Shown in pieces: positions 5,647 through 21,443 of a DNA stretch of 35,324 nucleotides. How positions within the stretch are numbered: the stretch's first letter is position 1; each line of letters opens with the position of its first letter. The notes under the pieces were generated by a model. That model saw only the letters and a list, made by a program, of their open reading frames with translations. It searched no databases and was not told the origin of the DNA. A program made the position numbers and the translations under genes. This stretch comes from Clostridia bacterium (GTDB lineage Bacteria; Bacillota; Clostridia; Oscillospirales; Acutalibacteraceae): assembly GCA_017396895.1 (NCBI GenBank), contig JAFQKN010000080.1, positions 1 to 35,324 on the forward strand, in the 5' to 3' direction.

Positions 5647-5693
5647 AAATAGCAATACAGACTTGATACTTTACGGCAGGAGATGTTTTGCTA

Positions 5694-6398
5694 ATGAATG
5701 AACGTATACTGATCGTGGATGATGAGAAAGAGATTGCAGACTTAATTGAGATCTATCTTACAAATGACGGTTACACTGTACATAAATGCTATAACGGGAC
5801 AGATGCACTTGAATGGATTGACAGACAAGATTTTGATCTGGCAATATTAGACATTATGTTGCCCGACATTGACGGATTTCAAATTTGCAGAACGATCAGA
5901 GAAAAGCATTTTTATCCTGTGATTATGTTAACGGCAAAAGTCGAAGATGCAGATAAAATTCTCGGTCTTACCATCGGAGCCGATGACTATATAACAAAAC
6001 CGTTTAATCCGTTGGAACTCACTGCAAGAGTAAAATCACAATTGCGCAGATATGTTCGCTATAACAATGCCGTATTGAAAGAAAAACAAACAGCGGAAAT
6101 TACTGAATATGAAGTCAGGGGCCTCACTGTTAACAAGGACTCGCATAAATGTTTTCTGTACGGACGAGAAATACAATTGACGCCAATTGAGTTTTCCATC
6201 TTGCTGTATCTGTGTGAACACAAAGGAAAGGTCATATCTTCCGAGGAGTTATTTGAAAATGTGTGGGGAGAAAAATTCCTTGACAATAACAATACAGTGA
6301 TGACGCATATAGGAAGATTGAGAGAAAAATTAAATGAACCTCCAAGAAAGCCCAAGTTCATAAAAACCGTATGGGGAGTTGGATACACAGTTGAATAA
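5694..6398 (+). CDS. VanR-like OmpR-family response regulator
   Basis: Two-component response regulator with 234 residues. The receiver domain spans residues 1-120, with the acidic pocket DDE near 9-11, the phospho-acceptor D53 in LAILDIMLP and the conserved lysine K102 in YITKPF. A winged-helix DNA-binding domain occupies about 135-234 and ends with FIKTVWGVGYTVE. By eye it is closely similar to VanR of glycopeptide resistance operons along its whole length (for example GLTIGADDYITKPFNPLELTARVK). The ATG at 5694 is chosen, 10 nt after AGGAGA (5678-5683). A TTG at 5688 is too close to that site. The kinase gene overlaps its 3' end. No vanHAX genes are present, so a resistance role is not implied. 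Confidence 0.92.
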   Translation: MNERILIVDDEKEIADLIEIYLTNDGYTVHKCYNGTDALEWIDRQDFDLAILDIMLPDIDGFQICRTIREKHFYPVIMLTAKVEDADKILGLTIGADDYITKPFNPLELTARVKSQLRRYVRYNNAVLKEKQTAEITEYEVRGLTVNKDSHKCFLYGREIQLTPIEFSILLYLCEHKGKVISSEELFENVWGEKFLDNNNTVMTHIGRLREKLNEPPRKPKFIKTVWGVGYTVE

Positions 6399-7539
6399 AA
6401 TTAAAAATATGATGAAGTCCAAGGATGACTTCAAACAATTACAAACAAGCATCCTCTTAAAAACGGCGATCATGTTGATTATATCAGTTGTTATAATATA
6501 CACCGTCTATGAAGGTTTTCTGAACGGTCGTTTTGCAAATGTGATCGTTGATTTCTTTCATACTTTCTTTTTTGACGATTATGAGGTGGCTTTAGAGGTG
6601 TATCAACGCTTCATAAATAATTACATGGATCTTTATATCCTGATAGCAATCATTGCAGTCTTTCTTGTAATCTTACGTATCTATTTGAAAAGTTTTACGA
6701 AGTATTTCAAAGAGATCAATCGCGGGATCGACTCCTTGATAGAAGAAGATACGGATGAAATTGTTCTGACAAGCGGATTGTCGTCAACTGCAAGCAAACT
6801 CAATTCCATCAAGCATACTCTTGAACAACGAAGATTGACTGCAGAGATAGCAGAAAAAAGAAAAAACGATTTAATAGTATATCTTGCACATGATCTAAAA
6901 ACTCCCTTGACTTCAGTGATCGGATATTTGACATTGCTGCGCGATGAAGGTAAAATATCAGAAGAACTCAGAGAAAAATATCTTTCCATTTCCCTTGAAA
7001 AAGCAGAAAGGTTGGAAGATCTGATCAATGAATTCTTTGAGATCACTCGCTACAATATTGCTGAAATTATACCGAATTTCAGCATTGTAAATTTAACAAG
7101 GTTGCTGGAACAACTGACTTTTGAATTCAAGCCGATGCTGACAAGCAAAAATCTTCATTGTAATCTTGAAATTGAACAAAATGTAATGATTCGTTGTGAT
7201 GCAGATAAAATGCAAAGGGTGTTTGAGAATCTTTTGAGAAATGCTGTCAATTATTGCTTTGAGAACAGTATGATTCAGATCCTTGTCTCACAGGATGAAT
7301 CATTTACATCCATCAGATTTATAAACAGCGGCACTACAATTACGCAAGAAAAACTGGATCGCATTTTTGAGCAATTTTACAGATTGGACTCAGCAAGAAG
7401 TACCAATAATGCCGGTGCAGGCTTGGGCCTTGCAATTGCGAAAGAGATCGTGAAACTTCACAACGGTACAATAACTGCCAAAAGTGATAATGAAACGATC
7501 GAATTTGAAGTATGCTTACCTGCAGATTGTAATTGTTGA
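6391..7539 (+). CDS. VanS-like sensor histidine kinase
   Basis: Membrane sensor kinase partner of the preceding regulator, about 382 residues. There are two membrane spans, at about 20-40 and 80-98, with a short extracytoplasmic loop between them (about 40 residues). A linker follows, then the H-box with H167 in YLAHDLKTPLTSVIGYL, an N-box (ENLLRNAVNY) and a G-box (GAGLGLAIAKEI). The layout and the phrases EKRKND and INEFFEITRYN match VanS closely. The start is uncertain. A TTG at 6391 overlaps the regulator stop by 8 nt and has GGGGAG 12 nt upstream. A TTG at 6379 sits on that site, and an ATG at 6409 is possible. The short external loop fits a direct wall- or drug-sensing kinase. Confidence 0.9.
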   Translation: MNKIKNMMKSKDDFKQLQTSILLKTAIMLIISVVIIYTVYEGFLNGRFANVIVDFFHTFFFDDYEVALEVYQRFINNYMDLYILIAIIAVFLVILRIYLKSFTKYFKEINRGIDSLIEEDTDEIVLTSGLSSTASKLNSIKHTLEQRRLTAEIAEKRKNDLIVYLAHDLKTPLTSVIGYLTLLRDEGKISEELREKYLSISLEKAERLEDLINEFFEITRYNIAEIIPNFSIVNLTRLLEQLTFEFKPMLTSKNLHCNLEIEQNVMIRCDADKMQRVFENLLRNAVNYCFENSMIQILVSQDESFTSIRFINSGTTITQEKLDRIFEQFYRLDSARSTNNAGAGLGLAIAKEIVKLHNGTITAKSDNETIEFEVCLPADCNC

Positions 7540-7561
7540 ACAAAATTGCTCTGTTTGTTTT

Positions 7562-7584
7562 TCGTAAGAAATTGTTAAGAAAAA
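7562..7584 (+). promoter_or_regulatory. Candidate VanR box pair upstream of the carboxypeptidase gene
   Basis: TCGTAAGAAATT at 7562-7573 agrees at every defined position with the 12-bp VanR consensus as I recall it from Tn1546 promoters (TCGTANGAAANT). A weaker copy, TGTTAAGAAAAA at 7573-7584, matches 7 of 10 defined positions. It lies 11 bp further on, the spacing usual for tandem OmpR-family sites. Downstream is a good -10 box, TATAAT at 7634-7639, with no recognisable -35 box, as expected for an activator-dependent promoter. The site is about 214-236 bases before the carboxypeptidase start. The rest of the 258-base gap shows a small dyad, TTTCCGTTCGGAAA at 7741-7754, and nothing else clear. 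Confidence 0.6.
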
Positions 7585-7797
7585 TCACATACTGTCTTTT
7601 GATAAAACATGGGTATTGCATATCGGATGCTGTTATAATAGCAATGCAAAACGGTTGATATCGGAAATCAAGTAAGGAATGTGATTTATATGAACTAAAA
7701 TATGGAAACAGAAAATACTTTGTACTCGAAAAAAAATTGATTTCCGTTCGGAAAACTCACTTTGCGTTATTATACAGAAAATTACAGGTACTACAAT

Positions 7798-8751
7798 ATG
7801 AAAAAAGTAATTATATATTTGTTATCAATCATAATATTAACTGTCAGTTGCACATCTTGCTCGGTAAATGTTCCGACTCCGCAGACAACATCACATCCTA
7901 CAACCGAAGAAATAACAATTCCGCAGATCACAGAGCCGCCAACCGTCGAAATGCCGACGCTTGCCCCTCCGACAATCACTGCAAAATGTTCATTTGTTTA
8001 TGATTTGAAAAATCATAAAATGATTGAAGGGGTAAACCTGCAGGAACGTATAGCACCTGCGTCCATCACCAAACTTTTAACAGCCTGTCTTGCTCTTGAA
8101 TACTTCAGCACCGATGAGTCCATGACCGCAGGCAATGAAGTGTTCAAAGTGCAACCAAACTCAAGTCTTTGCTTTATATTACCCGGCCACAAACTGACCG
8201 TACTGGATATACTTTACGGTTTGCTTATTCAATCGGGCAACGATGCGGCGTACACGATCGCCGTTGAAGTTGCAAGACGTGCAAACAGCCAAGCAAGCAT
8301 GACGGATGACGAAGCAATCAATCATTTTATAATACTGATGAATGAGTATGCACGACAGATAGGAATGAAAGACAGTCAATTTACAAGTCCGGACGGTTAT
8401 GATTCAGAGAATCAGTTTGTAACAGCTGAAGATATCCTCGCGCTTGCATTACAGGCAAAAAAATTCAGCGCAATCAGTATGATTACGGGTACTTTGGAAA
8501 AATACTCCGTTTTTCTAACGGGGGAAACGATCACATGGAGAAATACCAATCATTTTCTGGATCCGCAAAGTATCTTCTATTCTCCGTACGTAAACGGGAT
8601 GAAAACAGGTTCGACTCTCAATGCAGGTACCTGTTTGCTGACGTCATATAACGACGGCAATTTTGATCTGTTGATCTTTGTAGCAGGTTGTGAATCAGAT
8701 GAATCGCGTTACGTTGCCACGCAACAACTGATTCAATGGGCCATTCAATAA
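7798..8751 (+). CDS. Lipoprotein serine D,D-carboxypeptidase (peptidase S11)
   Basis: Penicillin-binding-protein type D-alanyl-D-alanine carboxypeptidase that trims the last D-Ala from peptidoglycan stem peptides outside the membrane. It has 317 residues. A hydrophobic signal (about residues 3-17) ends in cysteines C18/C21 (SCTSC), suggesting lipid anchoring. A Thr/Pro-rich spacer covers about 25-60. The active-site triad of motifs is complete: SITK with S89 and K92, SGN at 146-148, and KTG at 269-271. The ATG at 7798 is taken because the signal peptide starts there; its ribosome site (AGG near 7786) is weak. It is preceded by a VanR-type site and the VanRS-like pair. It lacks the C-terminal PBP5 amphipathic-helix domain of DacA. 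VanY of VanD-type clusters belongs to the same enzyme class. Confidence 0.9.
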   Translation: MKKVIIYLLSIIILTVSCTSCSVNVPTPQTTSHPTTEEITIPQITEPPTVEMPTLAPPTITAKCSFVYDLKNHKMIEGVNLQERIAPASITKLLTACLALEYFSTDESMTAGNEVFKVQPNSSLCFILPGHKLTVLDILYGLLIQSGNDAAYTIAVEVARRANSQASMTDDEAINHFIILMNEYARQIGMKDSQFTSPDGYDSENQFVTAEDILALALQAKKFSAISMITGTLEKYSVFLTGETITWRNTNHFLDPQSIFYSPYVNGMKTGSTLNAGTCLLTSYNDGNFDLLIFVAGCESDESRYVATQQLIQWAIQ

Positions 8752-8756
8752 TTCTG

Positions 8757-8796
8757 ACGGGATGCAAGAGACTTTTTTAAGTTTCTCGCATCCCGT
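8757..8796. terminator. Bidirectional hairpin between convergent genes
   Basis: A long imperfect stem: ACGGGATGC at 8757-8765 pairs with GCATCCCGT at 8788-8796, and the inner AGAGACTT pairs with AAGTTTCT. It lies between the carboxypeptidase stop and the helicase stop. T-runs on either side are weak, so termination strength is uncertain. Confidence 0.6.
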
Positions 8797-8800
8797 TGTT

Positions 8801-11029
8801 CTATACGGACCAGGAAAGAATGCAATTCTTCATCCCTTCAAGGTCTAATATTCCATATGCAAATCCCTTACGCACAAGTTCCGCAGGAAGAAATTCATCA
8901 TATTTTTCAAAAACCGGTACTTCCCTTTCATATACAAGTTCCAATGCATCGAAGTCCTTATTGATTTCTTCCTGCAAGACTTTGTAAAATTCTTCCTTTG
9001 TTGCTTTCATCGTAAATTGCATATAATACGGACGACATGAATCAAGTCCCGTCAAGCCGAGACGATTCGCACATTTGATTTTTAAGAATCGCTCCATTGC
9101 TAAAAATGCGTATGAACCGAGCCATGGCAACAAGCACCACATTTGACCGCCGAGATGAATCAGAGGCTCCCTTGTAAGAAATGAATGTAATGCCGTATTT
9201 CTCGCATGAAGCAGTCGTACAGCCGCATTTTTCATCAAATACGGATAAGATCTTTCCTCCGACAGGACTTGCTTCATTCGTTGCAATACCTTTGTATTGA
9301 TATCACCCGGACACATTCCGAAATATGCAGGTACCTTTCCTTTGACAAGCTCACAGTACACAAGTTTGCGCTTATGATCGACTTCTTCAACAACCCATAC
9401 ATGGCCCGCAATGGCTATTTTTTCACCTGCAGGAGGCGGCATGACAAGTGTACCGAGTTCCTGTGAGCCGCAACGCACTGTATATTCTTCACTTTCCTGA
9501 AATACCGCATAAAACTTGAATGAATTGACTTGACGTTCGCCGGCAAGACCTACGATCAATCCACCTTCTTCCGTACGCTGAATATGGCCGGTCTCAATAA
9601 GATGACGCAATAATACTTTGTAATCTTCCTGCGTTATACGGTGAAAACTTTTTAGTGTCAATACTCTTGAAGCAAGCGCGGCCGGTGTCAGTTCTCCGCA
9701 TGAAACAAGTGTTGACATGGTTTGATGATACAAAAGACTAAAAGGCAAACGGTTGAGATTCGGCGGTTCAACCCAGCGTTCTTCAAGATACAACTGGATT
9801 AAGGCAATACCTTGCAAAAGTTTCCATGGGATCGTTTCAGGTAACATAGCACGTGCGTGGGGCATATCTTCGCGAATAACAAACCACATTTCAGGAGGCA
9901 TATCACGTCTTCCCGTTCTGCCGAGACGTTGTAAAAACGAAGAAACAGTAAAAGGAGCATCAATTTGAAAAGCTCGTTCTAAGCGTCCGATATCAATTCC
10001 CAATTCAAGCGTTGATGTGGTAATTGTTGTTTGTAACTGTTCTTCATCTTTCATAACAGATTCGGCTGTTTCACGGTAAGATGCAGAAAGATTTCCATGA
10101 TGGATCAGAAAACGATCAGGTTCATGATTACTCTCGCAGTATCCGCGCAAAGTAGTTGTTACTGCTTCACATTCCTCACGTGAATTAACAAAAACAAGAC
10201 ATTTTCTGTCACGTGTATGATTATAAACGTATGCAAAACCGGGATCGGCATAGGCAGGGGCTTCATCCGATGGTTGTGACAACGCGGGCAACGCTTCTGC
10301 TGAGTCTCCTGCATCTGTTGCATTCTCCTGTTGCACAAAAAAATGCTCCATGGATATGCGCCATTTTACAGGTACACCGACAATATTCGGAACAAAGGTT
10401 TTCCGTCCCGTTCCTGTTGCCAAATATTCACCGACAGTCTGCGGATCACCGAGTGTAGCAGATAAACCGATCCGTCTCGGATTTACATTTGCAAGTTTTG
10501 ACAACCGTTCGATCAGACAGAGTGTTTGACCGCCTCTGTCGCCACGCATCATGGAATGCACTTCGTCTATGATAACAAAGCGAAGATCATGAAAAAGTTT
10601 ACCTAGATATGCGTGTTTCTTCATCAACAACGCTTCCAGTGATTCGGGTGTTATTTGTAGAATTCCGGAAGGATTCTTCAGCAATTTGTTTTTATGTGAC
10701 TGTGAAACATCTCCGTGCCAGTGCCAGACGGGAATGTTTGCTTCCGCACAAAGATCATTGAGTCTTCCAAACTGATCATTTATCAACGCTTTCAGCGGAC
10801 AAATGTACAATGCACCGACAGATGCGGGCATATCTTCTGCAAAAAGAGTCAGTATCGGAAAAAATGCTGCTTCCGTTTTTCCCGATGCGGTGGATGCACA
10901 CAGCAGAACATGGTCATCCGAACCGAATATAGCCTCCCCTGCCGCAACTTGTACGGCACGTAGATTTTGCCACTCGTTTGAATAGATATAACTTTGAATG
11001 AAAGGTGCATAACGATCAAATACGTTCAT
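8801..11029 (-). CDS. Lhr/BrxHI-like superfamily 2 helicase
   Basis: ATP-dependent DEAD/DEAH-type helicase of the Lhr-core/BrxHI type, 742 residues. Motif I is ASTASGKT (45-52), the DEVH box is at 155-158, motif III is SAT (190-192), and motif VI is QRLGRTGRR (367-375). A winged-helix/Lhr-core region of about 360 residues follows. No nuclease or DUF1998 motif was seen. The ATG at 11029 is preferred: GAGG lies 7 nt upstream, and it follows the ATPase stop by one base. A start at 11092 would overlap the ATPase gene. It is the last gene of the three-gene unit. Adjacent ATPase-helicase pairs of this kind (BrxD-BrxHI) occur in type 2 BREX. Substrate and polarity are unknown. Confidence 0.88.
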   Translation of the reverse strand: MNVFDRYAPFIQSYIYSNEWQNLRAVQVAAGEAIFGSDDHVLLCASTASGKTEAAFFPILTLFAEDMPASVGALYICPLKALINDQFGRLNDLCAEANIPVWHWHGDVSQSHKNKLLKNPSGILQITPESLEALLMKKHAYLGKLFHDLRFVIIDEVHSMMRGDRGGQTLCLIERLSKLANVNPRRIGLSATLGDPQTVGEYLATGTGRKTFVPNIVGVPVKWRISMEHFFVQQENATDAGDSAEALPALSQPSDEAPAYADPGFAYVYNHTRDRKCLVFVNSREECEAVTTTLRGYCESNHEPDRFLIHHGNLSASYRETAESVMKDEEQLQTTITTSTLELGIDIGRLERAFQIDAPFTVSSFLQRLGRTGRRDMPPEMWFVIREDMPHARAMLPETIPWKLLQGIALIQLYLEERWVEPPNLNRLPFSLLYHQTMSTLVSCGELTPAALASRVLTLKSFHRITQEDYKVLLRHLIETGHIQRTEEGGLIVGLAGERQVNSFKFYAVFQESEEYTVRCGSQELGTLVMPPPAGEKIAIAGHVWVVEEVDHKRKLVYCELVKGKVPAYFGMCPGDINTKVLQRMKQVLSEERSYPYLMKNAAVRLLHARNTALHSFLTREPLIHLGGQMWCLLPWLGSYAFLAMERFLKIKCANRLGLTGLDSCRPYYMQFTMKATKEEFYKVLQEEINKDFDALELVYEREVPVFEKYDEFLPAELVRKGFAYGILDLEGMKNCILSWSV

Positions 11030-11030
11030 C

Positions 11031-12350
11031 TTAAACCTCAAATTCAGCGAATGGTGAACCATCCGAATCTTCCTGTAATGCAGGTTTTGCAAAAGAAAAG
11101 TCTGCGGATCGCAAAATCATTTCGATTGTAATGTTTGAGTCTTGCAACAGAAGATTTAATAATTCTATAAAATCACGTATCACTTCGCGCGGTGTTATAT
11201 TCGTCTGCGCACCTATACGGCTGTATTCGATCTGAATAAAGTAAATCAGATCTTGCTGTTGCAGACGAACAGGATAATCGTACAGCACCGCATGAATATC
11301 ACGCAGTTTTTCTACGAGTATCAGCATTTCTTCGTTTGTCAGGGGTTCAAGATATATCATTGGCCCTAAAAGATCTTTTACATTCGTTTGCAAAGAAAAA
11401 CGGCCCGACTGTAACCTCGATCGCAGTGCCTCATAACTAAATACGCCGCGGTGTTTATCTTCCATGCATTGCGGAGTCGCACACATGATAAATCCGATGT
11501 GCGAAGCCTTACCTTGCAAGACATCATTGTACATTGTCAGTATCTTCTCATAATTATACTGTCTTGTTATGCTGTTTGGTATCTTATAGACGTTCACAAG
11601 TTCGTCAATCAGCACCAACATACCGCTGTAGCCTGCCCGTTTCAGAAATACAGCAAACAGCTTTAGATAGTCATACCAATCATCGTCAGTGATGCAAAGA
11701 TTGATACCGAGCGCGTTCTTCGCCTCCGTTTTGTTCTGGTATTCTCCTCGAAACCACTTCAATACGGATGCTTTTGTATCTGCATCGTCATTCCGAACAG
11801 AATGAAAATACATTGTCAACAACTTGGCAAAATCAAAACCGTGCACCATTTCATCGAGAGTTTGAACGACGGTGTAGATTCTTTTTTCGACTTCAGCAGA
11901 AAAGGCTTGACTTGTTACTTCATATTTTCCTTCAGCTGCGACTTCTGTTTGAACGGATTGAATCCATCGGTCAAGAATTAAAGACAACGCACCGCCGTCA
12001 GGTCTTGTTTTGGTTGACATATTGCGAATTAACTCCCTATAGGTTGCAAGACCTTGTCCTTTATTACCATGCAATCTCCGTTCGGGAGAGAGATCGGCAT
12101 CTATTACAACAAAATTGCGATCCATGCAATAACTGCGCATCGTCTGTAACAGAAAACTCTTTCCTGACCCGTATTTACCTATTAAAAAACGAAATGCGGC
12201 ACCTCCGTCGGCAATCACATCAACATCGTGCAGCATTGCATCTATTTCAGCCTTTCTGCCGACCGTAATATAAGGCAGGCCGATTCGCGGAACAACACCA
12301 CCGTTGAGTGCATTGATTATGACCTGTGCAATACGTTTAGGTATTTTCAT
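11031..12350 (-). CDS. BrxD-like (DUF2791) AAA-type ATPase
   Basis: P-loop ATPase of 439 residues that I assign to the DUF2791 family, which includes BREX BrxD. The segment IGKYGSGKSFLL carries the Walker A motif (58-65), followed by VVIDADLSPERRLHG. Walker B is LVLIDE (245-250), followed by ELVNVYK. A C-terminal segment FIQIEYSRIGAQTNITPREVIRDFIELLN is also typical of this family; it is described here from positions about 360-390. The start codon overlaps the stop of the TerB gene as ATGA, so translation is coupled. The helicase begins one base after its stop. By analogy with BREX it would be a motor or switch acting with the helicase on nucleic acid. This is inference. It could also act as a nucleotide-gated sensor. 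Confidence 0.85.
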   Translation of the reverse strand: MKIPKRIAQVIINALNGGVVPRIGLPYITVGRKAEIDAMLHDVDVIADGGAAFRFLIGKYGSGKSFLLQTMRSYCMDRNFVVIDADLSPERRLHGNKGQGLATYRELIRNMSTKTRPDGGALSLILDRWIQSVQTEVAAEGKYEVTSQAFSAEVEKRIYTVVQTLDEMVHGFDFAKLLTMYFHSVRNDDADTKASVLKWFRGEYQNKTEAKNALGINLCITDDDWYDYLKLFAVFLKRAGYSGMLVLIDELVNVYKIPNSITRQYNYEKILTMYNDVLQGKASHIGFIMCATPQCMEDKHRGVFSYEALRSRLQSGRFSLQTNVKDLLGPMIYLEPLTNEEMLILVEKLRDIHAVLYDYPVRLQQQDLIYFIQIEYSRIGAQTNITPREVIRDFIELLNLLLQDSNITIEMILRSADFSFAKPALQEDSDGSPFAEFEV

Positions 12351-13831
12351 AAATTCAAATATCCTTTCAATTCATCAATGTAATCTTCTTGAATATGCGG
12401 TATATCACCGTCAAAAAAGATGACTTGATCCAAAAAGATGTCAAAGAGTAATTCATTGATCTCATCTGCAAGAATACTGCTGACGGTTGCATTTTCTTTT
12501 AGTAATTCATCGAAGTCTTTGTTTTCCAAAAGACAAGCAATAAACAATATCTGCACCGCCGACAAGATCGATTGTTGCGTTTTTCCATTTTCCATAACAT
12601 CTTCTGTTGCGTGATCATAAGGTTCATCTTCTGTTTGATCTTCGATCAGTAATTTCTCCTGTGTCAGCAGAGCGTCATTACGGATCCCCTGCAAAACAGA
12701 CAGATCGATCTCAATGCGTTTTGCGCTTTCAAAACGCTTTTTTAATAAGTAATTGTCGATGCATTCATCAATGATCTTTTTCCAATCATCGGATATATTC
12801 CCATCTTTGACAGATTGCTTAAAAGAATATGCTATTCTCATTTTGCTGTCTACAGTTTTTAAGATCGCGCCTATAGGCTGCATTTTGGATGTAAAAGGTA
12901 AAAAAGCAGAGTAACGGAACTGTGCACCGGCTTGTATGTATTGTTGCATCGATCCGATGCTATAAGCATAATCTCTGCGCCTCAAATGATCGTAAAATAC
13001 AGCACCGGCAAACAAAGATCTTGTTCCTTCGCAGTAGCTGCCGAAAAAGCGGTCGCGCTTATGCAGCGCTTCATACTTACAATAATGACGTTCCAACGCA
13101 CGAAACACTTCTGCTGCAACCGATATACAATCATTCTGATGTGCAAGAAAAAATTTTGAAGAATCAAAGTGATAAGACGATAACTGCATCATTGCTTGAA
13201 AGACGGCTTCATCCGACGCATTCGTGTAATCAAGCAATACTGAAATATCACTTTTCGGTGTTGCATTCGGAATCTGTTGCAAATAATCATTCGGAAGATC
13301 ATAATAAATACAAAAGTCTGTCAGCCATCTGTGCATATAAAGTTCGGCACGTTGATCCAAAGTCGAATAGTAAGACCAGAATTCGCACAGTTTCATAAAT
13401 CCGTCCGTCGGATCTGTATACCCGATGCCGTTGATCAATTCATAAATGTATATGTAAACAAAAGACAGAGATGTTTTTCGGATCTCTCCCTTCCTGACTC
13501 TTGTTCGCCACGAAAAATAACCGCGCAATTGCTTGTCGGATAAGGCGCGGTATGTTGGATAATACCGCAAAAACGGTTCGTTGTATTCGTAATCATCCTC
13601 GACAGATTCCATAAATTTCGCTTGCTTATAAAATAATACATTTTCCGGAAGAGTCGGATTATTAAGTGCAATTTCTCGCATTTTTCTGTAGATCGGCGGT
13701 GTATAATTGGCCATCTGTGAAGCCTTTATAAGGATCGGCTCATCTTCATAAACTTTATCAGATAAAGTGTGCCTTTCTGCAAGTTTTGTATTTGATAAGA
13801 TGTTTTGAATGAAAGTTTCCGATATAGGCAA
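12347..13831 (-). CDS. TerB-N / TerB-C domain protein
   Basis: A 494-residue cytosolic protein recognised from the TerB-N signature at about 45-230: FYKQAKFME, then FLRYYPTYRALSDKQLRGYF, then the SWRTRVRKGEI and TSLSFVYIYIYELINGIG segments. The C-terminal about 150 residues, acidic and helical, fit the TerB-C region. TerB-N/TerB-C proteins have been linked by comparative genomics to stress-response and DNA-processing gene sets; no enzymatic motif is visible. The start is a TTG at 13831, with GGTGGTGA 6-8 nt upstream on the minus strand. The ATG at 13847 is out of frame. It is the first gene of the unit, led by a consensus promoter, and its stop overlaps the ATPase start. It may be the sensor or scaffold of the system. 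Confidence 0.8.
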   Translation of the reverse strand: MPISETFIQNILSNTKLAERHTLSDKVYEDEPILIKASQMANYTPPIYRKMREIALNNPTLPENVLFYKQAKFMESVEDDYEYNEPFLRYYPTYRALSDKQLRGYFSWRTRVRKGEIRKTSLSFVYIYIYELINGIGYTDPTDGFMKLCEFWSYYSTLDQRAELYMHRWLTDFCIYYDLPNDYLQQIPNATPKSDISVLLDYTNASDEAVFQAMMQLSSYHFDSSKFFLAHQNDCISVAAEVFRALERHYCKYEALHKRDRFFGSYCEGTRSLFAGAVFYDHLRRRDYAYSIGSMQQYIQAGAQFRYSAFLPFTSKMQPIGAILKTVDSKMRIAYSFKQSVKDGNISDDWKKIIDECIDNYLLKKRFESAKRIEIDLSVLQGIRNDALLTQEKLLIEDQTEDEPYDHATEDVMENGKTQQSILSAVQILFIACLLENKDFDELLKENATVSSILADEINELLFDIFLDQVIFFDGDIPHIQEDYIDELKGYLNL

Positions 13832-13883
13832 ATTTAATCACCACCATAATAAACAGAATATATGTTCTGCGAATGTTTGTTCT

Positions 13884-13912
13884 ATTATAGCAAACAATTG
13901 TTCGGTTTTCAA
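13884..13912 (-). promoter_or_regulatory. Sigma-A promoter of the TerB-ATPase-helicase unit
   Basis: On the minus strand TTGAAA (13907-13912) and TATAAT (13884-13889) are exactly 17 nt apart. The spacer contains a 10-bp palindrome, AACAATTGTT (13893-13902). CAATTGTT recurs at 13924-13931, 29 bp away from 13895-13902. Such paired sites around a promoter suggest repression. The leader is about 45 nt. Confidence 0.75.
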
Positions 13913-13985: not shown

Positions 13986-14417
13986 TTATACAATGACTAT
14001 TTCATCTCCGGCTTTGACGATGCCGCCGACAATAACCTTTGCAAAGATACCGCGTTTCGGCATCACACACTTACCGACCTTCTTAAAAATCTCACATCCG
14101 TGGTGACATTCCTTACCGATCTGTGTGACTTCAAGAATGCACGCGCCGATCTGTAATCTCGCGCCTATGGGCAACGTATGCAATTCTATACCTCGCGTGG
14201 TGATGTTTTCAGCAAAAATACCGTAATCAAGATCGGAAAGTCCGAGTGCACGCATTTCATCTATACTTTCGTCTGCCAACAAACTGACCTGTCTGTGCCA
14301 ATTACCGGCATGGGCATCGTTTTGAAGGCCGAATTCCGCAATTAAAATCGCCTCGTCGATCGGCTTTTTAACTGTTCCTTTTTCTGTACTGATATTAACG
14401 GAAAGAACTTTTGCCAT
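13986..14417 (-). CDS. MOSC domain protein
   Basis: Small stand-alone MOSC-domain protein, 143 residues. The MOSC fold is also the C-terminal domain of Moco sulfurase. Visible family features are the GLQNDAHAG.WHRQVSLL segment near 33-50, the FAENI motif near 70, the LPIGARLQIG segment, and a conserved cysteine in IGKECHHGC near 104-109. The ATG at 14417 is chosen, with AGGTGG 5 nt upstream. A GTG at 14426 falls inside that site. It begins one base after the moaA stop and is the last gene of the Moco operon. Stand-alone MOSC proteins sit commonly next to moaA/moaC in Clostridia. A role in metal-sulfur or pterin handling is likely, but its reaction is not known from sequence. Confidence 0.85.
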   Translation of the reverse strand: MAKVLSVNISTEKGTVKKPIDEAILIAEFGLQNDAHAGNWHRQVSLLADESIDEMRALGLSDLDYGIFAENITTRGIELHTLPIGARLQIGACILEVTQIGKECHHGCEIFKKVGKCVMPKRGIFAKVIVGGIVKAGDEIVIV

Positions 14418-14418
14418 G

Positions 14419-15351
14419 TTAACCACCTAAATTATTCATTGTTCTGTTTGTTATAAATGCTTTTGAAAAACTGTTCTTGCAAGGTTTTTGACGAACTGCA
14501 TCCTGTATACGTTGCTTAATAAGATCATTGTTGTACATCACATCAACCAAAGGGATTTCGAGATTATTGCCTAAACACGGTCTTAGAGTACCGTCGGCGG
14601 TGAGACGCATACGAGAACAGGAATCACAGAAGCAAGATGAAATAGGATTTATAAAACCAACCGTTCCTTTGGCATTCGATTCACGGTAATTCATCGCCAC
14701 CCCGTCTGCTTTATTTTCTACAGGAAGCAATTGCGGATACATACGCAGAATTTGTGCACCGCTGATGCCTTCTTCCTTGGAATCCCCCATAGGCATCAAT
14801 TCAATAAAGCGTACCGTCAACGGGTACTCATGTGCCAATGCAATAAAATCTGCAATTTCATCGTCATTCTGACCTTTCAAAATGACCGTATTTATTTTTA
14901 ACGGAGTAAGTCCGTGACGAAAAACTGCTTCAATGCCGCTGAATGTATTTGACAAATCTGCACCGAACATCTCTTTACTGCGTTGCGCGTTCAATGTATT
15001 CAGACTGATATTCACACGATGCAAGCCGCTTTGTTTCAGATCAGATGCAAGCAATGCAAGCAACTGTCCGTTGGTAGTCAATGCGATATCATCATAAAAC
15101 GGCATATCGGATACAGCGGAAATAATTTCACAGATATCATTACGCAACAGGGGTTCGCCACCCGTAAAACGGATCTTACGAAACCCGCATTCACCAAACA
15201 GACGTGAAAGGCGTATAACGGTATCTGTTTTCATTTCCGATTCTTTTAAGCACCCGCCTTCATTTTTTGCACAGTGCGGACATGTCAGCTGGCATCGTTT
15301 TGTAAGTGAAAATCGCAGATAATCTACGGTTCTTCCGAATGTATCCTTCAT
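14419..15351 (-). CDS. moaA: GTP 3',8-cyclase MoaA
   Basis: Radical SAM enzyme for the first step of molybdopterin synthesis, GTP to 3',8-cyclo-7,8-dihydro-GTP. It has 310 residues. The N-terminal [4Fe-4S] motif is C20-x3-C24-x2-C27. The GGEP segment at 64-67 binds SAM. The second cluster uses C242, C245 and C259 in FCDSC...LRPCL. The protein ends in the conserved Gly-Gly (309-310) needed for activity. The ATG at 15351 overlaps the moaC stop as ATGA. Its ribosome site is weak, so translation probably depends on moaC. All catalytic features are intact. Confidence 0.95.
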
Positions 15352-15836
15352 AAGTCTGTTTTATCTCCGCTTGCAATAAAGGTGCCGCTTCTGCCGCCGG
15401 ATTTTGAGAGCAGACAAATATTCTCAATTCGCATCCCCCGATCAACAGCCTTACACATATCATAAACAGTTAATGCGGCAACACTTACAGCCGTGAGTGC
15501 TTCCATCTCAACACCTGTTTTATAAGAACATTTTGCAAAAGCTTGAATCAATAACGCATCTTCACTCATGAACTCAAAATCGACGCTGACTTTTTCGATC
15601 GGTATTGCATGACAAAGCGGAATCAGATCCGCAGTCTTTTTGGCACCGCAAATACCTGCAATGCGAGCAACAGACAATACATCTCCTTTATTTAATGAAT
15701 TGTCCTTAATCATTTGTAAGGTGTCAGGTTTCATTTTCACAACGGCCTGCGCTTGTGCAGTTCTTACCGTTACTTCCTTCTCAGAAACATCAACCATATT
15801 TGCTTTTCCCTGTTCGTCTATATGTGAAAACTGCAA
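15348..15836 (-). CDS. moaC: Cyclic pyranopterin monophosphate synthase MoaC
   Basis: Second enzyme of molybdopterin synthesis, converting the MoaA product to cPMP. The 162-residue length is normal. Conserved segments are MVDVSEK near the N-terminus, LIPLCHAIP near the middle, [17 protein letters not shown], and SGGRSG near the end. The start is taken as a TTG at 15836: GGAG (15846-15849) is 8 nt upstream, and the resulting N-terminus matches the family. A GTG at 15845 abuts that site and overlaps the upstream gene. It follows the moeA/PBP stop by one base. Confidence 0.93.
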
Positions 15837-15837
15837 A

Positions 15838-17748
15838 TTATTCACTCCAATTTATAATTTCACCGATTCCGTCAACGGTGTATCCGCCCAATTGAGTCAG
15901 CCTGTCCTTTAATTCGTGGCTTCTTAATGCATCAAGAAATAACTTCACGTAAGGTTGATCGAATGCGTTTTCGGACACTAAAAGGTCATAATGCTCGTTC
16001 CACAACGGAATAAAATCAAGATCATAGATCTTTGCGGCAGAATATATTCCCATTCCGACATCAGCAGAGTCGGATGCAACCATAGCTGCAACGGCTGTGT
16101 GCGTATATTCTTCACGTTCATAACCGTAAATCGTACTGCTATCGATATGATTTCTGTTTAATAAGTAATCAAGCAAAATTCTTGTTCCGGAACCTTTTTG
16201 CCGATTCACGTACGATATGCCTCCCGATAGTTGTTCGAGACATGTGACGTTTTTAGGATTTCCTTTTTTTACGATCAATCCCTGCAAACGTCCGACACCG
16301 CGGATGAGATATACCTTCTGAGTAAGAAACATCTTTTTAAGGTATGGTATATTATATATACCTGACTCTTCATCCAATAAGTGAATGCCCCCCATGTGCG
16401 CCTGATTCCGTTTGACAGCCATGATTCCGCCCATACTGCCGACATGAGAAGACATAACCAGACAAGAGTTTTCTTGTTTTCGCATAAGATCATAAACTTC
16501 ATCCAATAACGGATCATGACTGCCGACGATCATCAACGCAGTGTCCAATTGCCATTTCGGATACCTTAAAGCGATTTGAATCTCGCTTTCATTTTCATAT
16601 CCTTCACAATTTTGTGCAACATTCAGCAGTGCGGACGATTTTGAATAGCCACTCACCAAACCGGCTGACGTACGCATCGGCACTGCAATGAAATCATCAC
16701 CGATCTTCGCGGCGCGACAACGAACAGATTCCTCATATTTGAGACTTGAGATCAGTTTACCTGAAAGAATCGCACTTTCGGTCGGCAGTTCTGTTAAGAT
16801 TCTTTTTGTAAGTAATGCAATGATCGGCTTGACAAAAGTGTTCATGACAGTGATTCCGGAAACGGGATATCCGGGTAAACCAAAGAACGGTACGTTGCCG
16901 ATGCGACCGAGAATGGTCGGTTTGCCGGGTTTCATAGCAACCCCATGGCAAACAAGAGAACCGCATTCATTAAGAACCGTTGCAGTATAATCGTCTCTGC
17001 CTGCTGATGAGCCGGCAATAACAAGAACACAATCTGCTTTTTCTGCAGCATCCGTCACCGCCTTCTTCAACAATTCAATATGATCGGGGACGGTCTCATA
17101 AATAATGCTGTCAGCTCCCCATTGTTTCAGCATTGCGGAGAAAATAGCAGAATTATATTCGGGGATATCTCCGTCTTCAAGAGTAGTTTCTGCAGAAACA
17201 ATTTCATCACCGGTGGGAATAATTGCACATACCGGACGTCTTACAGCTTCAAAAGACAATACGCCGCCTGCCATAAAAGCACCTATCAAAGAAGGTGTCA
17301 ACTCAGTAAATGAAGGAGCAAGCATATCTCCCATACTGACATCCTCTCCGATTTGTCGTATATGTTGCCACGGTACTGCGGCAGCATAAATGCTTACGGA
17401 GCCGTCTTTATTCTCGATGACATTTTCAATCATGATCACACTGTCTGCGTTCGACGGAATCACATCACCCGTGTCCACGCGAACAAACTGATCCGAATTG
17501 AGTGTAACGGGATTTGCCTCGCTTGCACCGAAGGTATTTTCAGCAAGCACTGCAATGCCATCCATCGCACTTGAACAATAATGCGGCGAAGAGCGTTTGG
17601 CATAAACAGCCGTCGCAGTGACTCTGTGAAGCGAATCAGCAGTTTTCACCGTTTCGGTTTTATAACAAAAACCGTTGGCTGTCAATTGCTCTTTCAACAT
17701 ACCGATTGCTTGTGCAACAGGTGTGTTTGTTAAATATTCATACTTCAT
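15838..17748 (-). CDS. MoeA-type molybdopterin molybdenumtransferase fused to PBP-like domain
   Basis: A 636-residue two-domain protein. Residues 1 to about 400 are MoeA-like and catalyse metal insertion into adenylylated molybdopterin. They include SSAMDGIAV near 59, [11 protein letters not shown] near 87, IPTGDEIV near 170, a glycine-serine substrate loop ([10 protein letters not shown]) near 245, and [10 protein letters not shown] and GLPGYPVSG. From about 415 onward the sequence is a periplasmic-binding-protein-like domain (PF12727 type), with [17 protein letters not shown] near 540-556. It lacks a signal peptide and so is cytosolic. It may sense molybdate or tungstate. This fusion is known in Clostridia and archaea. 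The start overlaps the upstream moeA stop as ATGA, with GAGG 5-6 nt upstream. Confidence 0.9.
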
Positions 17749-18968
17749 ATCTGCCTCGCAAATAAATACACTTTAACTGTCTGTGATTCATTGACACCTT
17801 CACAATCTCTGTCGATGCGGATATATCCGTCCGCTTTCTGCAAGACGGAAATAACACCGGATTTAGAATACAGAGGTGTACACATAATTTCATTATCGCA
17901 GTATTGCAATTCGACGGGATACACCGCTTCCCGTCCATGATCGGACGGAATCTTTACGTTAGATTTTGCAAAAAGAGTAATCGGGCAAAAAACAGAATCA
18001 CGCATCTTATAAAGAGCCGGTTTAACGAACAATTCAGCAACCAAGGCGGCGGCTAAAGGATGTCCCGGCAATGCAAAAACGGGTGTATTATTAACAACGG
18101 AAAACATTGTAGGCTTACCCGGTTTCATCGCAATGCCGTGAAAATATACTTCCCCGAGCAGCGATAAAACATCATAAGCCGCATCCTTGTCTCCTGCCGA
18201 ACTGCCGCCGGACATCACGACAATATCATTTTCAGATACTGCTTTTTTGACGGCAAGTGTCAATTCGTCTATATCATCACGAACAATCGGATACTGATTG
18301 ATCTGCGTGCCGTTATCAAGCAACAACTCGCTCAGTAAAATCGTGTTGATATCACGGATTTGTCCGATCTGCGGAGTTTGTGTATATGGAATAATCTCGT
18401 CACCTGTGGATATCAAACCGATTTTTATTTTTTCATACACGGTGACGCAATCTATACCGAGTGAAGATAAAATACCGACACTGCGCGCCGTAATACACGC
18501 CCCTCTTTTTAATACCGGCTCACCGACCTTAATGTCATCTCCGCACCGAACAACGTTTTTATATACTGCAGCCGGTTTTCCGACATAAATATATCCGTCA
18601 TTGTAATCTTCACAATACTCAAGCATAACAACTGCATCTGCGCCGTCCGGTAAGCAACCGCCTGTAGGTATTTTCTGACACGTCCCCTTGTCAAGAACAG
18701 TATTTGCGGCATTGCCCATGATAACTTCGTCCGTAAGCCTCAATACAGACGGTAAACTCTGTGAGCAACCGAAGGTGTCGCTTGCCTTTACCGCAAATCC
18801 GTCCACAACCGAACGGTCAAAAGCCGGAACATTCTCTGTGCTGAAAACGTTCCGCGCAGAGATTCTGCCTATGCAGGCAGATAAAGAAACCGTTTCAGTG
18901 CAGTTAAACACAGGAAGATGGCTTGATATGATTTGTTGTGCCTGTTCGGAATTTACAACATTCAGCAT
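17745..18968 (-). CDS. moeA: Molybdopterin molybdenumtransferase MoeA
   Basis: Second, single-domain MoeA, 407 residues. It inserts molybdate or tungstate into MPT-AMP. Landmarks are PAFDRSVVDGFAV near 48-60, KIPTGGCLPDGADAVVMLE near 98-116, LISTGDEI, the MSGGSSAGDKD loop, MKPGKPTMFS and ALPGHPLAA. Most MoeA proteins have SxMDGYA at the first site. Here it is SVVDGFA, and the other copy has SAMDGIA. GGAGG lies 8 nt before the ATG. The gene overlaps the tupC stop by 7 nt. Genomes with two MoeA paralogues often use them for different metals; that is inference here. Confidence 0.93.
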   Translation of the reverse strand: MLNVVNSEQAQQIISSHLPVFNCTETVSLSACIGRISARNVFSTENVPAFDRSVVDGFAVKASDTFGCSQSLPSVLRLTDEVIMGNAANTVLDKGTCQKIPTGGCLPDGADAVVMLEYCEDYNDGYIYVGKPAAVYKNVVRCGDDIKVGEPVLKRGACITARSVGILSSLGIDCVTVYEKIKIGLISTGDEIIPYTQTPQIGQIRDINTILLSELLLDNGTQINQYPIVRDDIDELTLAVKKAVSENDIVVMSGGSSAGDKDAAYDVLSLLGEVYFHGIAMKPGKPTMFSVVNNTPVFALPGHPLAAALVAELFVKPALYKMRDSVFCPITLFAKSNVKIPSDHGREAVYPVELQYCDNEIMCTPLYSKSGVISVLQKADGYIRIDRDCEGVNESQTVKVYLFARQI

Positions 18969-19645
18969 TTATCGATCCTCCAATTGTTCAAAAATGCTTT
19001 TCCGAATTCAGTTTGCGGATTCCGTAAAATATCCGCTGTATTACCGAATTCAACAACGCGGCCTTTGTGCATGACGATCATTTTATTTGAAATCCGAACC
19101 GCCTGAGACGGCAGATGTGTGGAAAAGAGCAAGGTAGTATCATTTTGTCTGCAATAATCCATTAAAACCGCTTCAAGTTTTTCCGTCAGTTCAATGTCAA
19201 CTGCCGACAGCGGTTCATCCAACAATAATAAGCGGTAAGGTTTTACAAGCATACGAGCAAGGCACATTCTTTGTTTTTCACCGCCCGACAATGCATTCGG
19301 ACGGTGCTCCGCAAGATGTGTCAATCCGATACTTTCCATAATACGTGTAATTATTTCTTTTTTGTTATTATCTCTGTCTATTCCGAGTTCTAAATTACGG
19401 CGCAATGACAAATTACAACAAAACGGCGATTGCGGTTCATAGCCTGTTTCATTTTTTTCACAGGAAACGACGCAATCTCCTTGATCTGCTGCTATATAAC
19501 CCGACAGCAACCGCAGCAAAGTAGATTTTCCGGATCCGTTTGCGCCGACAAGAGCGACACGGTCATTTTTCTCTATATGCAATTCATCAATCTGCAATGT
19601 AAACTCCGATGAATACTTTTTTTCAAGATTCTGTATATGTATCAT
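18962..19645 (-). CDS. tupC: Tungstate/molybdate ABC transporter ATPase
   Basis: ABC transporter ATP-binding subunit, 227 residues. Walker A is GANGSGKST (34-42), the signature is ALSGGEKQR (118-126), Walker B is LLLLDEP (139-145), followed by the D-loop SAVD. The switch histidine lies in LLFSTHLP near 176. There is no C-terminal regulatory (TOBE-type) domain, as is usual for TupC and unlike ModC. The ATG overlaps the permease stop as ATGA. With TupA and TupB it forms the import system that feeds the Moco genes downstream. Confidence 0.9.
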   Translation of the reverse strand: MIHIQNLEKKYSSEFTLQIDELHIEKNDRVALVGANGSGKSTLLRLLSGYIAADQGDCVVSCEKNETGYEPQSPFCCNLSLRRNLELGIDRDNNKKEIITRIMESIGLTHLAEHRPNALSGGEKQRMCLARMLVKPYRLLLLDEPLSAVDIELTEKLEAVLMDYCRQNDTTLLFSTHLPSQAVRISNKMIVMHKGRVVEFGNTADILRNPQTEFGKAFLNNWRIDKC

Positions 19646-20325
19646 TTCATCTTCTCCTGCAACGAATAAGCAAGACTGTTCACAACAAAAGATAAAGTCA
19701 GCAACAAAATGCCGATCGCAACGGCAAATTCAAAATTTCCTTTTCCTGTTTCCAACTGAATGGCGGTTGTCATGACGCGCGTTTTATTTTGTATGTTACC
19801 GCCTACGATGGATACGGCACCTACTTCGGCAATGGCCCTGCCGAATCCGGTTAAAACAACACTCACCAATTGTGCTCTGCAATCAATAAGCAACAATATA
19901 ATCTGCTTGCCTTTAGAAAGACCTAGTCCGTGACAGGTTTCATTAAAAGATGCGGCTTTTGCACTTGCACAGTTTGCACTTAATCCGATCACAATGGGGG
20001 TAATCAGCAACACCTGTGCTACGATCATAGCCTTTATTGAATAAATGATATGAAACGATCCCAACGGCCCTACACGGCAGAACAATAAAAACACAACAAG
20101 ACCTGCCACAACAGGCGGCAAGCCCATCAATGTATTTATGAACCGCATCAAAACACCTTTTCCGCGAAAACTATTCTTGCCGAGCGCTGTTCCGATCGGC
20201 AATCCGATCACAGCAGAAACCAGTGTGCTGACAGTTGTCATTTGTGCGGTCGTAACTATGGTTGACCATAAATAGTCGTCACCTGTAAAAAAAAGCGTAA
20301 ACGCTTGTTTTAAGTATTCAAACAT
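19642..20325 (-). CDS. tupB: Tungstate ABC transporter permease
   Basis: Membrane subunit of the oxyanion importer, 227 residues with about five to six hydrophobic segments. The coupling loop is GRAIAEVGAVSIVGGNI near 175-191, matching the EAA motif of TupB-type permeases (A-x-E-V-G-A). LMGLPPVVAGLV near 80 is another family hallmark. The ATG at 20325 is chosen because the family N-terminus starts there; the upstream in-frame codons lie inside a strong hairpin. The ribosome site (GGATTTTG) is weak. The hairpin just before it may lower expression relative to tupA. Confidence 0.9.
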   Translation of the reverse strand: MFEYLKQAFTLFFTGDDYLWSTIVTTAQMTTVSTLVSAVIGLPIGTALGKNSFRGKGVLMRFINTLMGLPPVVAGLVVFLLFCRVGPLGSFHIIYSIKAMIVAQVLLITPIVIGLSANCASAKAASFNETCHGLGLSKGKQIILLLIDCRAQLVSVVLTGFGRAIAEVGAVSIVGGNIQNKTRVMTTAIQLETGKGNFEFAVAIGILLLTLSFVVNSLAYSLQEKMK

Positions 20326-20335
20326 AATCAAAATC

Positions 20336-20368
20336 CGGCTGTCGCAATTTCGGCAGTTGCGACAGCCG
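20336..20368 (-). promoter_or_regulatory. Intercistronic hairpin between tupA and tupB
   Basis: A perfect 12-bp GC-rich stem, CGGCTGTCGCAA at 20336-20347 and its complement at 20357-20368, with a 9-nt loop. It lies 7 nt after the tupA stop and 10 nt before the tupB start. The sequence after it on the minus strand is GATTTTGATT, which has no proper T-run. An mRNA-processing or stability element is more likely than a full terminator. Such elements commonly give excess binding protein over permease. Confidence 0.75.
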
Positions 20369-20375
20369 ATCAATT

Positions 20376-21344
20376 TTATTCAGCAGTCGGAACTGCAATT
20401 TCTATTGCTTTCCAGATCTTCAGTTCAGCTTTATGCGTACCGCTGTTGTCACCTCTGGAAATAAACTCCGATTTTGCTTCGGCAATTTTTCGGAAGGCCT
20501 GGCCTGCATTTTCACAGTCAGCGATCTGTGCCGGATCGTTTTCAGGGCCTACGACCACAAAGAAATTATACATGAACGGTATGCGTTTTACACCGAAGCC
20601 CTTGTTAATGAATTCTTCTTCGGAAGCCTTGGCATGCACAAGAAGAAGATCTGCTTCACCTTTTTCTGCGGCGGATATGGCGGCACCCGTACCTGCGGAT
20701 GCAATTTCTACGGTGTAACCGGTAGCGGCTTCAAAATATTCCATCAGATACGGAAGAAGTCCCGAATCGTTGACAGATGTAGTGGTAGAAAGTCGTATGA
20801 CATTGTTTTCCGGTTCTTCAACAGCATCTTGCTCTTTTTCAGGTAAAATATCAGTTACAAGATCTGCGTATGCTTCATCAACCGTAAACAAATTCTGACC
20901 GTAGTTGTCAGTGCCGTATACGGCGATCAGAGAAAGAGCGTCACTACTAAGCATCCAATCAATCAGATCATTGGCTCCCTGTGTGTTGATACCAACGCTT
21001 TCATCAAAAGCATCCGCATTCACAGCGATCAAAGAATAGGTATTCTTCATATCGTCACCCTTTTCAAGCAATATCTCAAGATCGAGATTTGCTTCATTGG
21101 CAAGAAAAGTGGCTTTATCCGTCAGAGCATAAGCCTGTTTCTCACTTGCCATATTCAGAGTGGCTCCCATTCCGGCACCTGCTGAAACATACCATGCAAA
21201 ATCATCTTCGCCAAGCACAGCAGAGTCGGTAACATCCTGAGTACCTGCTTCGGTTGTCGGTGTATCCGCATTATCATTTACACAAGCGGCAAAAGACAAC
21301 ACAAGACACATCACCGTCAAAAGTGCTAACATTTTTTTGAACAT
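20376..21344 (-). CDS. tupA: Tungstate-binding lipoprotein TupA, circularly permuted
   Basis: Extracytoplasmic tungstate/molybdate-binding protein, 322 residues. The signal peptide ends at lipobox FAAC with C21. The two halves are in reversed order compared with ordinary TupA. Residues 51-160 (from WYVSAGAGMGATLNMASE to YGQNLFTVD) correspond to the usual C-terminal part. Residues 181-315 (from NVIRLSTTTS through MYNFFVVVGP and FISRGDNSGTHKAEL to WKA) correspond to the usual N-terminal part. An acidic linker (about 161-180) joins them. Both anion-site motifs, STTTS and SRGDNSGTH, are present, so binding is probably retained. The ATG at 21344 is chosen with AGGAGA 8 nt upstream and the signal peptide following. 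A riboswitch precedes it. The assignment to TupA is firm; the permutation is read directly from motif order. Confidence 0.88.
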   Translation of the reverse strand: MFKKMLALLTVMCLVLSFAACVNDNADTPTTEAGTQDVTDSAVLGEDDFAWYVSAGAGMGATLNMASEKQAYALTDKATFLANEANLDLEILLEKGDDMKNTYSLIAVNADAFDESVGINTQGANDLIDWMLSSDALSLIAVYGTDNYGQNLFTVDEAYADLVTDILPEKEQDAVEEPENNVIRLSTTTSVNDSGLLPYLMEYFEAATGYTVEIASAGTGAAISAAEKGEADLLLVHAKASEEEFINKGFGVKRIPFMYNFFVVVGPENDPAQIADCENAGQAFRKIAEAKSEFISRGDNSGTHKAELKIWKAIEIAVPTAE

Positions 21345-21349
21345 AATTT

Positions 21350-21443
21350 TTCTCCTTTCCAATACGGGAGGCTTGAGCGTTTCCATTCAAACCCATCGGC
21401 TGTAAAGGCATATCAACAGACTTAGCCTGTACAACTCGAAGAA
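21350..21443 (-). promoter_or_regulatory. Moco/Tuco-type riboswitch (MOCO RNA motif)
   Basis: The leader of the Moco operon. On the minus strand it ends GCCTCCCGTATTGGAAAGG (21372-21354), nearly the same as the end of the E. coli moaA Moco RNA as I recall it. A 7-bp stem (21387-21393 with 21370-21376) carries a GAAA tetraloop (21380-21383). Another stem (21425-21432 with 21402-21409, one mismatch) opens into CTAAG (21425-21421) and TATG (21412-21409), which reads as an 11-nt GAAA-tetraloop receptor with the first pair swapped. UUCUUC (21443-21438) can pair with GGAGAA (21355-21350), which would cover the tupA ribosome site. The stems between receptor and loop helix are few, which resembles the reduced form proposed for tungsten cofactor. 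Confidence 0.78.

Follow-up and report, generated by a model that had tools for sequence, protein, structure and literature searches.

The three-gene Shango operon of a Clostridia bacterium (Acutalibacteraceae; assembly GCA_017396895.1) very probably belongs to the LexA (SOS) regulon in this lineage, and we propose for it a mechanism that acts at the level of DNA. The operon lies on contig JAFQKN010000080.1, whose 35,324 nucleotides we call the window, and consists of three minus-strand genes, sngA, sngB and sngC, with intact frames that overlap or abut from 13831 to 8801. To judge from its promoter, the trio appears to be switched by LexA, so that this defence would be armed when the cell's DNA is in trouble. 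The system itself is already known, and what is new is its regulatory link to the SOS response, which sequence comparison supports well and which is unreported as far as we searched: the literature covered, which leaves out most subscription papers, contained no report of SOS or LexA control of Shango and did not list Shango as a member of the LexA regulon.

A LexA-type operator in the Shango promoter

A LexA-type operator lies inside the promoter of the operon, between its two hexamers, and a weaker candidate box follows downstream:

13884..13912, minus strand: sigma-70-type promoter, TTGAAA-17-TATAAT, 11 of 12 consensus matches, with TG before the -10
13891..13904, minus strand: LexA-type operator CGAACAATTGTTTG, a perfect box that fills the spacer between -35 and -10
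13856..13867, minus strand: possible second, weaker LexA box GAACATATATTC, downstream of the -10, 11 of 12 matches

About 50 bases separate the end of the promoter from sngA. The promoter is the best of 11 promoter-like sites between 8600 and 14200, a total that shows no excess over the shuffle mean of 14.3. Matches of 11/12 to the box are not significant by themselves in the window. The genome encodes LexA, and its lexA promoter carries AAACAAATGTTT. Within the 2.7-Mb genome the 12-base box RAACAWWTGTTY occurs at 12 sites, six of which fall at five loci, namely lexA, recA, two Y-family polymerase genes (one with two boxes) and sngA. Shango here thereby shares its operator with the LexA (SOS) regulon of Bacillota, as seen before lexA and recA in the genus and before the two polymerase genes in this genome, and from the position of the box at lexA and recA we infer that LexA itself would read the box before sngA. 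The final consensus was set after the lexA and Shango promoters had been viewed and was not blind to the window box; the other genomes provide the independent test.

Four further perfect LexA-type boxes, in genome G000 at C47, C104, C154:11210 and C173 (loci L033, L035, L040 and L043), lie before or near a GHKL histidine kinase gene, a major facilitator superfamily (MFS) gene, an unidentified open reading frame (ORF) and a gene with a weak SurA-like match. These may be further SOS genes or chance occurrences.

Conservation of the box in the genus and beyond

Because the genome-wide number of boxes is close to that of a reversed control (12 places versus 10), the test of the box rests on its position and conservation. 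Across the genus, all 24 genomes examined for lexA and all 25 examined for recA have a perfect box no more than 280 bases ahead of the match, counting one locus per genome among 26 genomes and leaving out G021 and G023 (weak lexA matches) and G024 (recA cut). Upstream of sngA, nine of the ten readable genus loci score at least 11/12, compared with 6 of 148 control upstream regions of the genus (Fisher p = 4e-10; three of the 13 loci, L047, L051 and L055, were unreadable). When four reversed or scrambled motifs are tried instead, 0 to 2 of the nine boxed loci score as high.

Outside the genus, the box occurs in 8 of 16 readable loci of the family, a set with no controls of its own, from which 4 of 20 loci were left out as the sngA start or upstream region was cut or not found and L272 was excluded as a fragment. 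Among loci from named genomes it occurs in 16 of 59, compared with 9 of 264 controls (p = 1e-7), and in 10 of 33 clusters at 85% identity; 21 of the 80 named loci were left out with the sngA start or upstream region cut or not found, and at least two of the 59, L108 and L124, also belong to the genus set. None of these box counts represents independent events, because relatives share ancestry. The placement of the box varies among carriers. By eye, L132 and L139 have a TTGAC-type -35, the box and TATAAT in one continuous run, with the box reaching into the -10, and at L165 the box fills the spacer. A Paenibacillus plasmid copy (L106), whose SngB is 52% identical to that of the window, carries CGAACGTGCGTTC between TTGAAA and TATAAT, and at five genus loci (L048, L049, L050, L052 and L054) the box stands upstream of the apparent -35.

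Several observations weigh against reading Shango here as a defence under SOS control, beginning with the unenriched genome-wide count just described. A first box pattern, CGAACNNNNGTTYG, was dropped with 18 strand matches in the genome versus 15 for its reversed control, and the six boxes of the final consensus that lie outside the five loci named above fall within ORFs or before genes without a known SOS role. Only three of the nine boxed genus loci carry a perfect box, the other six reaching 11/12, and one genus locus (L053) has no box at all, with a best score of 9 anywhere upstream of sngB. Strong boxes are missing from half of the family loci and from 43 of the 59 named loci. At seven plasmid loci searched for the LexA boxes of their own groups, in consensus form, only L106 was positive: the second Paenibacillus plasmid copy (L192) has no box, and no group-specific box is present in three copies from enterobacteria and two from alphaproteobacteria. 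In the window and around the 80 named loci, moreover, the neighbours of Shango are mostly not defence genes.

Shango might alternatively be free of SOS control altogether, the palindrome being either a chance product of AT-rich promoters or the operator of another repressor. The shortness of the motif, the near-equal reversed control and the many Shango promoters without a box, one of them in the genus, are what this alternative would explain. It does not account for the excess over controls in the genus (9/10 versus 6/148), the near-silence of scrambled motifs (0 to 2 of 9), a box before every lexA and recA examined, or the location of the Shango box in distant species, within the spacer or abutting the -10, and we judge this alternative improbable. 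We hold instead to LexA control in this lineage. The broader proposal, that in a good part of the Bacillota Shango is SOS-induced, with LexA as its direct repressor and RecA/LexA as the infection sensor for its expression, is weakened because L053 and L192 have no box, and we favour it with some reserve.

The three proteins match Shango

The genes of the trio and the structures that flank it are as follows:

12347..13831, minus strand: sngA, TerB_N/TerB_C protein of 494 amino acids, TTG start
11031..12350, minus strand: sngB, BrxD-like P-loop ATPase of 439 amino acids, ATG start
8801..11029, minus strand: sngC, superfamily 2 (SF2) DEAD/DEAH helicase of Lhr/BrxHI type, 742 amino acids
13944..13973, minus strand: terminator-like hairpin just past the upstream MOSC-domain gene, picked up by the terminator scan
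8757..8796, no strand: inverted repeat between sngC and the convergent D-alanyl-D-alanine carboxypeptidase (DD-carboxypeptidase) gene, visible in the sequence and absent from the terminator-scan output

The junction of sngA and sngB is an ATGA overlap, and that of sngB and sngC reads TAA-G-ATG, a 1-base gap; the longest ORF of sngC spans 11092-8801, and its likely start is the ATG at 11029. A first-pass annotation of the window had described a compact three-gene unit with its own promoter, both of which stand, and had bounded it by two hairpins, of which the upstream one was recovered as terminator-like and the downstream one only as an inverted repeat.

We assigned families with PADLOC profiles, domains with Pfam at its cut-offs, and BrxD and helicase equivalogs with NCBIfam. 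The best PADLOC matches were SngA for the first protein (224 bits, 1.5e-66), SngB for the second (619 bits, 1.1e-186; BrxD second, 160 bits, 3.2e-47) and SngC for the third (902 bits, 6.8e-272; BrxHI second, 420 bits, 5e-126). Above the Pfam cut-offs, SngA contains TerB_N at residues 66-223 (107 bits) and TerB_C at 365-489 (49 bits), SngB contains BrxC_BrxD (552 bits), and SngC contains DEAD (98 bits) and Helicase_C (59 bits), in agreement with the domains first read from the sequence. An SngA-type TerB protein, an SngB-type ATPase and an SngC-type helicase, the components by which Shango is recognised, thus lie adjacent in A-B-C order, and on these profile matches the trio is Shango (SngA-SngB-SngC). 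The first-pass label of an undescribed system fails because PADLOC names all three proteins as Shango components and the system has been published (PMC10250203), and the accompanying idea of a stand-alone defence module holds up in the form of Shango itself.

According to that publication, Shango joins an ATPase and a helicase with a TerB-like protein in a tested anti-phage system, the cloned copy of Pseudomonas aeruginosa PA14 lowers the plating of many, not all, tested Pseudomonas phages 10-100-fold, and an Escherichia coli copy, as cited there, has modest activity (PMC10250203). An anti-phage function of the present copy is predicted from these two, with which it shares the three protein families and the compact operon. 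It may differ in the LexA-type operator of its promoter, and it is a single chromosomal system outside any defence hotspot. Its SngA is also short, at 494 amino acids, compared with about 770 in the Shango of Klebsiella and Salmonella plasmids.

The order of the ATPase and helicase genes had also been likened to the BrxD-BrxHI pair of type 2 bacteriophage exclusion (BREX), from which one might take the trio for a degenerate BREX lacking PglX, PglZ and BrxC. The kinship is real, in that both pairs unite a related ATPase and helicase, and membership in BREX is very improbable: SngB and SngC score far above BrxD and BrxHI in their own families (SngC at twice its BrxHI score), SngB reaches 161 bits versus the NCBIfam BrxD equivalog cut-off of 350, and the trio with SngA forms a conserved unit at 73 of 80 loci. 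The reported absence of PglZ was borne out in this one genome (0/1; assembly about 90% complete), and neither PglX nor BrxC was found among the scanned window proteins, no genome-wide search having been made for either.

The helicase had been called Lhr-type, a label that Pfam does not echo, having no Lhr-specific match, and that the fold supports: the closest solved fold to the SngC model, which is of moderate confidence (predicted local distance difference test score, pLDDT, 67.8), is Mycobacterium smegmatis Lhr (5v9x, E 1.5e-15), followed by MrfA. The helicase motif residues are invariant across 25 aligned SngC sequences, and Pfam detects no nuclease domain. SngC is an SF2 helicase like Druantia DruE, Dpd DpdJ and the MrfA/YprA-type helicases; a published tree places it with BrxHI, DruE and DpdJ (PMC12278908). 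DruE is reported to engage 3'-tailed and single-stranded-DNA-containing DNA and, unlike SngC as seen by Pfam, to carry phospholipase D nuclease domains (PMC13192584). In SngB the motifs G[KRE]YG[SA]GK[ST] and DE[LAM]VN are present in all six aligned sequences, and a single weak PDB profile match was to a GTPase (E 0.008). The SngA model is confident (pLDDT 83.8) and has no solved relative, with no PDB fold match below E 0.6 and no profile match below 0.2.

Distribution and gene order

Shango is patchily distributed. In a sample of one genome per species, half of the genus genomes carry SngB (13 of 26, or 6 of the 12 that are good), as do 24 of the 300 family genomes, one of them as a fragment (19 of 230 when only good genomes are counted). 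From at least 561 SngB relatives in named genomes the best 80 were kept as loci; SngA lies upstream at 79 of these 80, SngC downstream at 74 and both, in A-B-C order, at 73. Four of the seven exceptions stop within 100 bases of sngB, and the others are L174, where the sequence stops about 1 kb past sngB with no SngC match, L115 and L178. At L115, an Oscillibacter bin, 6 kb downstream of sngB lack sngC, and the gene after sngB (L115:8088-9629) resembles a serine recombinase by eye, which would fit the insertion of a mobile element into sngC or its replacement by one. L178 is rearranged at 6001-12333, with a partial SngC match downstream of sngB and none upstream for SngA, its sole SngA-like match sitting downstream on the opposite strand. 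At L123, L112 and L186 sngB and sngC lie farther apart than usual (about 0.6, 0.6 and 2.5 kb), so the operon may have taken in an additional gene.

On plasmids, SngB-like matches occur in 691 of 72,556 records (682 covering at least 80% of the query), for the most part from Klebsiella and Salmonella. Of 40 matches drawn from across the ranking, the last-ranked carries a BrxD annotation, so at least one match is a BrxD. Among phages, none of 50,697 records matched SngB. All seven plasmid loci opened, from Bacillota, gammaproteobacteria and alphaproteobacteria, hold the trio in A-B-C order. On a Klebsiella plasmid (L188:2155-3078) a gene annotated as Lit-family phage exclusion adjoins Shango, and at one other opened plasmid locus an AbiE pair does.

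Chromosomal place and neighbouring genes

Two sister species (L044 and L045) carry Shango at the same place as the window, between an MFS/DD-carboxypeptidase side and an ArgZ-like/DcuC side, the DcuC gene being the near matched flank at L045; a third, L046, has the MFS gene next to Shango, and the remaining carriers have no matching flanks in the stretches compared. Between the window and L044, identity is 49% for SngA, 72% for SngB, 78% for SngC, 88% for the MFS neighbour and 55% for the DD-carboxypeptidase neighbour, so SngA is the fastest-changing part of the system and, given the 55% of its neighbour, not unique in the region. A molybdenum cofactor and transport block in the window (13986-21386; MOSC, MoaA, MoaC, two MoeA-type proteins, an ABC (ATP-binding cassette) transporter and a binding protein) adjoins Shango and has no match at this place in L044 or L045. 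At 5688-8751 of the window a response regulator, a histidine kinase and a D-alanyl-D-alanine carboxypeptidase stand in a row, which we take to resemble that part of a glycopeptide-type cell-wall sensing set which comprises its regulator and carboxypeptidase. When the flank genes were sought in the 26 genomes, the 13 Shango-free species had their relatives on different contigs (8) or lacked the second (5), and no clean empty site was shown for that reason.

We also sampled 136 ORFs of 120-1199 amino acids lying within 3 kb of Shango at the 80 loci, taking no more than two from each locus; not all of them need be real genes. Among the 25 listed of 79 PADLOC families with at least one match, none matched more than three of these ORFs, and the Pfam matches, among 25 of 126 families listed, were mostly metabolic or regulatory, a setting that does not support a defence island. 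Within the window, matches to defence models fall on the two-component pair and the MoaA protein and are taken as cross-matches.

These observations bear on the possibility that the task of Shango here is genome maintenance, with an SOS-induced complex of helicase and ATPase acting on damaged host DNA and phage defence being incidental. An SOS-type operator, mostly non-defence neighbours and the place common to the window and two sister species would all suit such a role, as would the match of SngC to the ligase-associated DNA-damage helicase model TIGR04121, which at 195 bits is under the cut-off of 850. We nevertheless consider it unlikely, since the system is absent from 13 of 26 genus genomes and 276 of 300 family genomes, SngB-like genes sit on 691 plasmid records (at least one a BrxD), SngA has diverged far more than the MFS neighbour (yet not much more than the DD-carboxypeptidase neighbour), and Shango elsewhere protects against phage (PMC10250203). 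Patchy presence is what defence predicts. The first-pass annotation had given up its defence idea in the event of a trio present in essentially all strains at one fixed locus and never near defence genes, and the outcome is divided: the patchy presence favours defence, and the shared chromosomal place with its metabolic and regulatory neighbours speaks against it.

Proposed mechanism and implications

We propose that in a healthy cell LexA, bound between the -35 and -10, would keep the operon low. Phage replication, or any DNA damage, would expose single-stranded DNA, on which RecA filaments would form and prompt LexA self-cleavage, allowing the operon to be expressed. SngC, as a helicase of Lhr/BrxHI type, may then engage phage replication intermediates that contain single-stranded DNA, with the BrxD-like ATPase SngB as a possible loader or switch and the TerB_N/C protein SngA as a possible sensor or adaptor, and together the three would block or misprocess phage DNA. 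The release of LexA draws on the operator evidence, and we infer the action of SngABC on phage DNA; among the domains detected there is no effector nuclease.

Shango is widespread, and the literature searched yielded nothing on its trigger, regulation or mechanism. A LexA operator offers a direct and testable answer to the question of when Shango is expressed, and suggests that the targets of the system are DNA intermediates that arise in the course of infection, not DNA as it enters the cell. If Shango is SOS-induced across a good part of the Bacillota, finding the operator variously within the spacer, abutting the -10 and ahead of the -35 would mean that this wiring has been gained or rebuilt repeatedly under selection. 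LexA control of Shango would also bring prophage induction, DNA-damaging antibiotics and antiviral defence under one switch in these bacteria.

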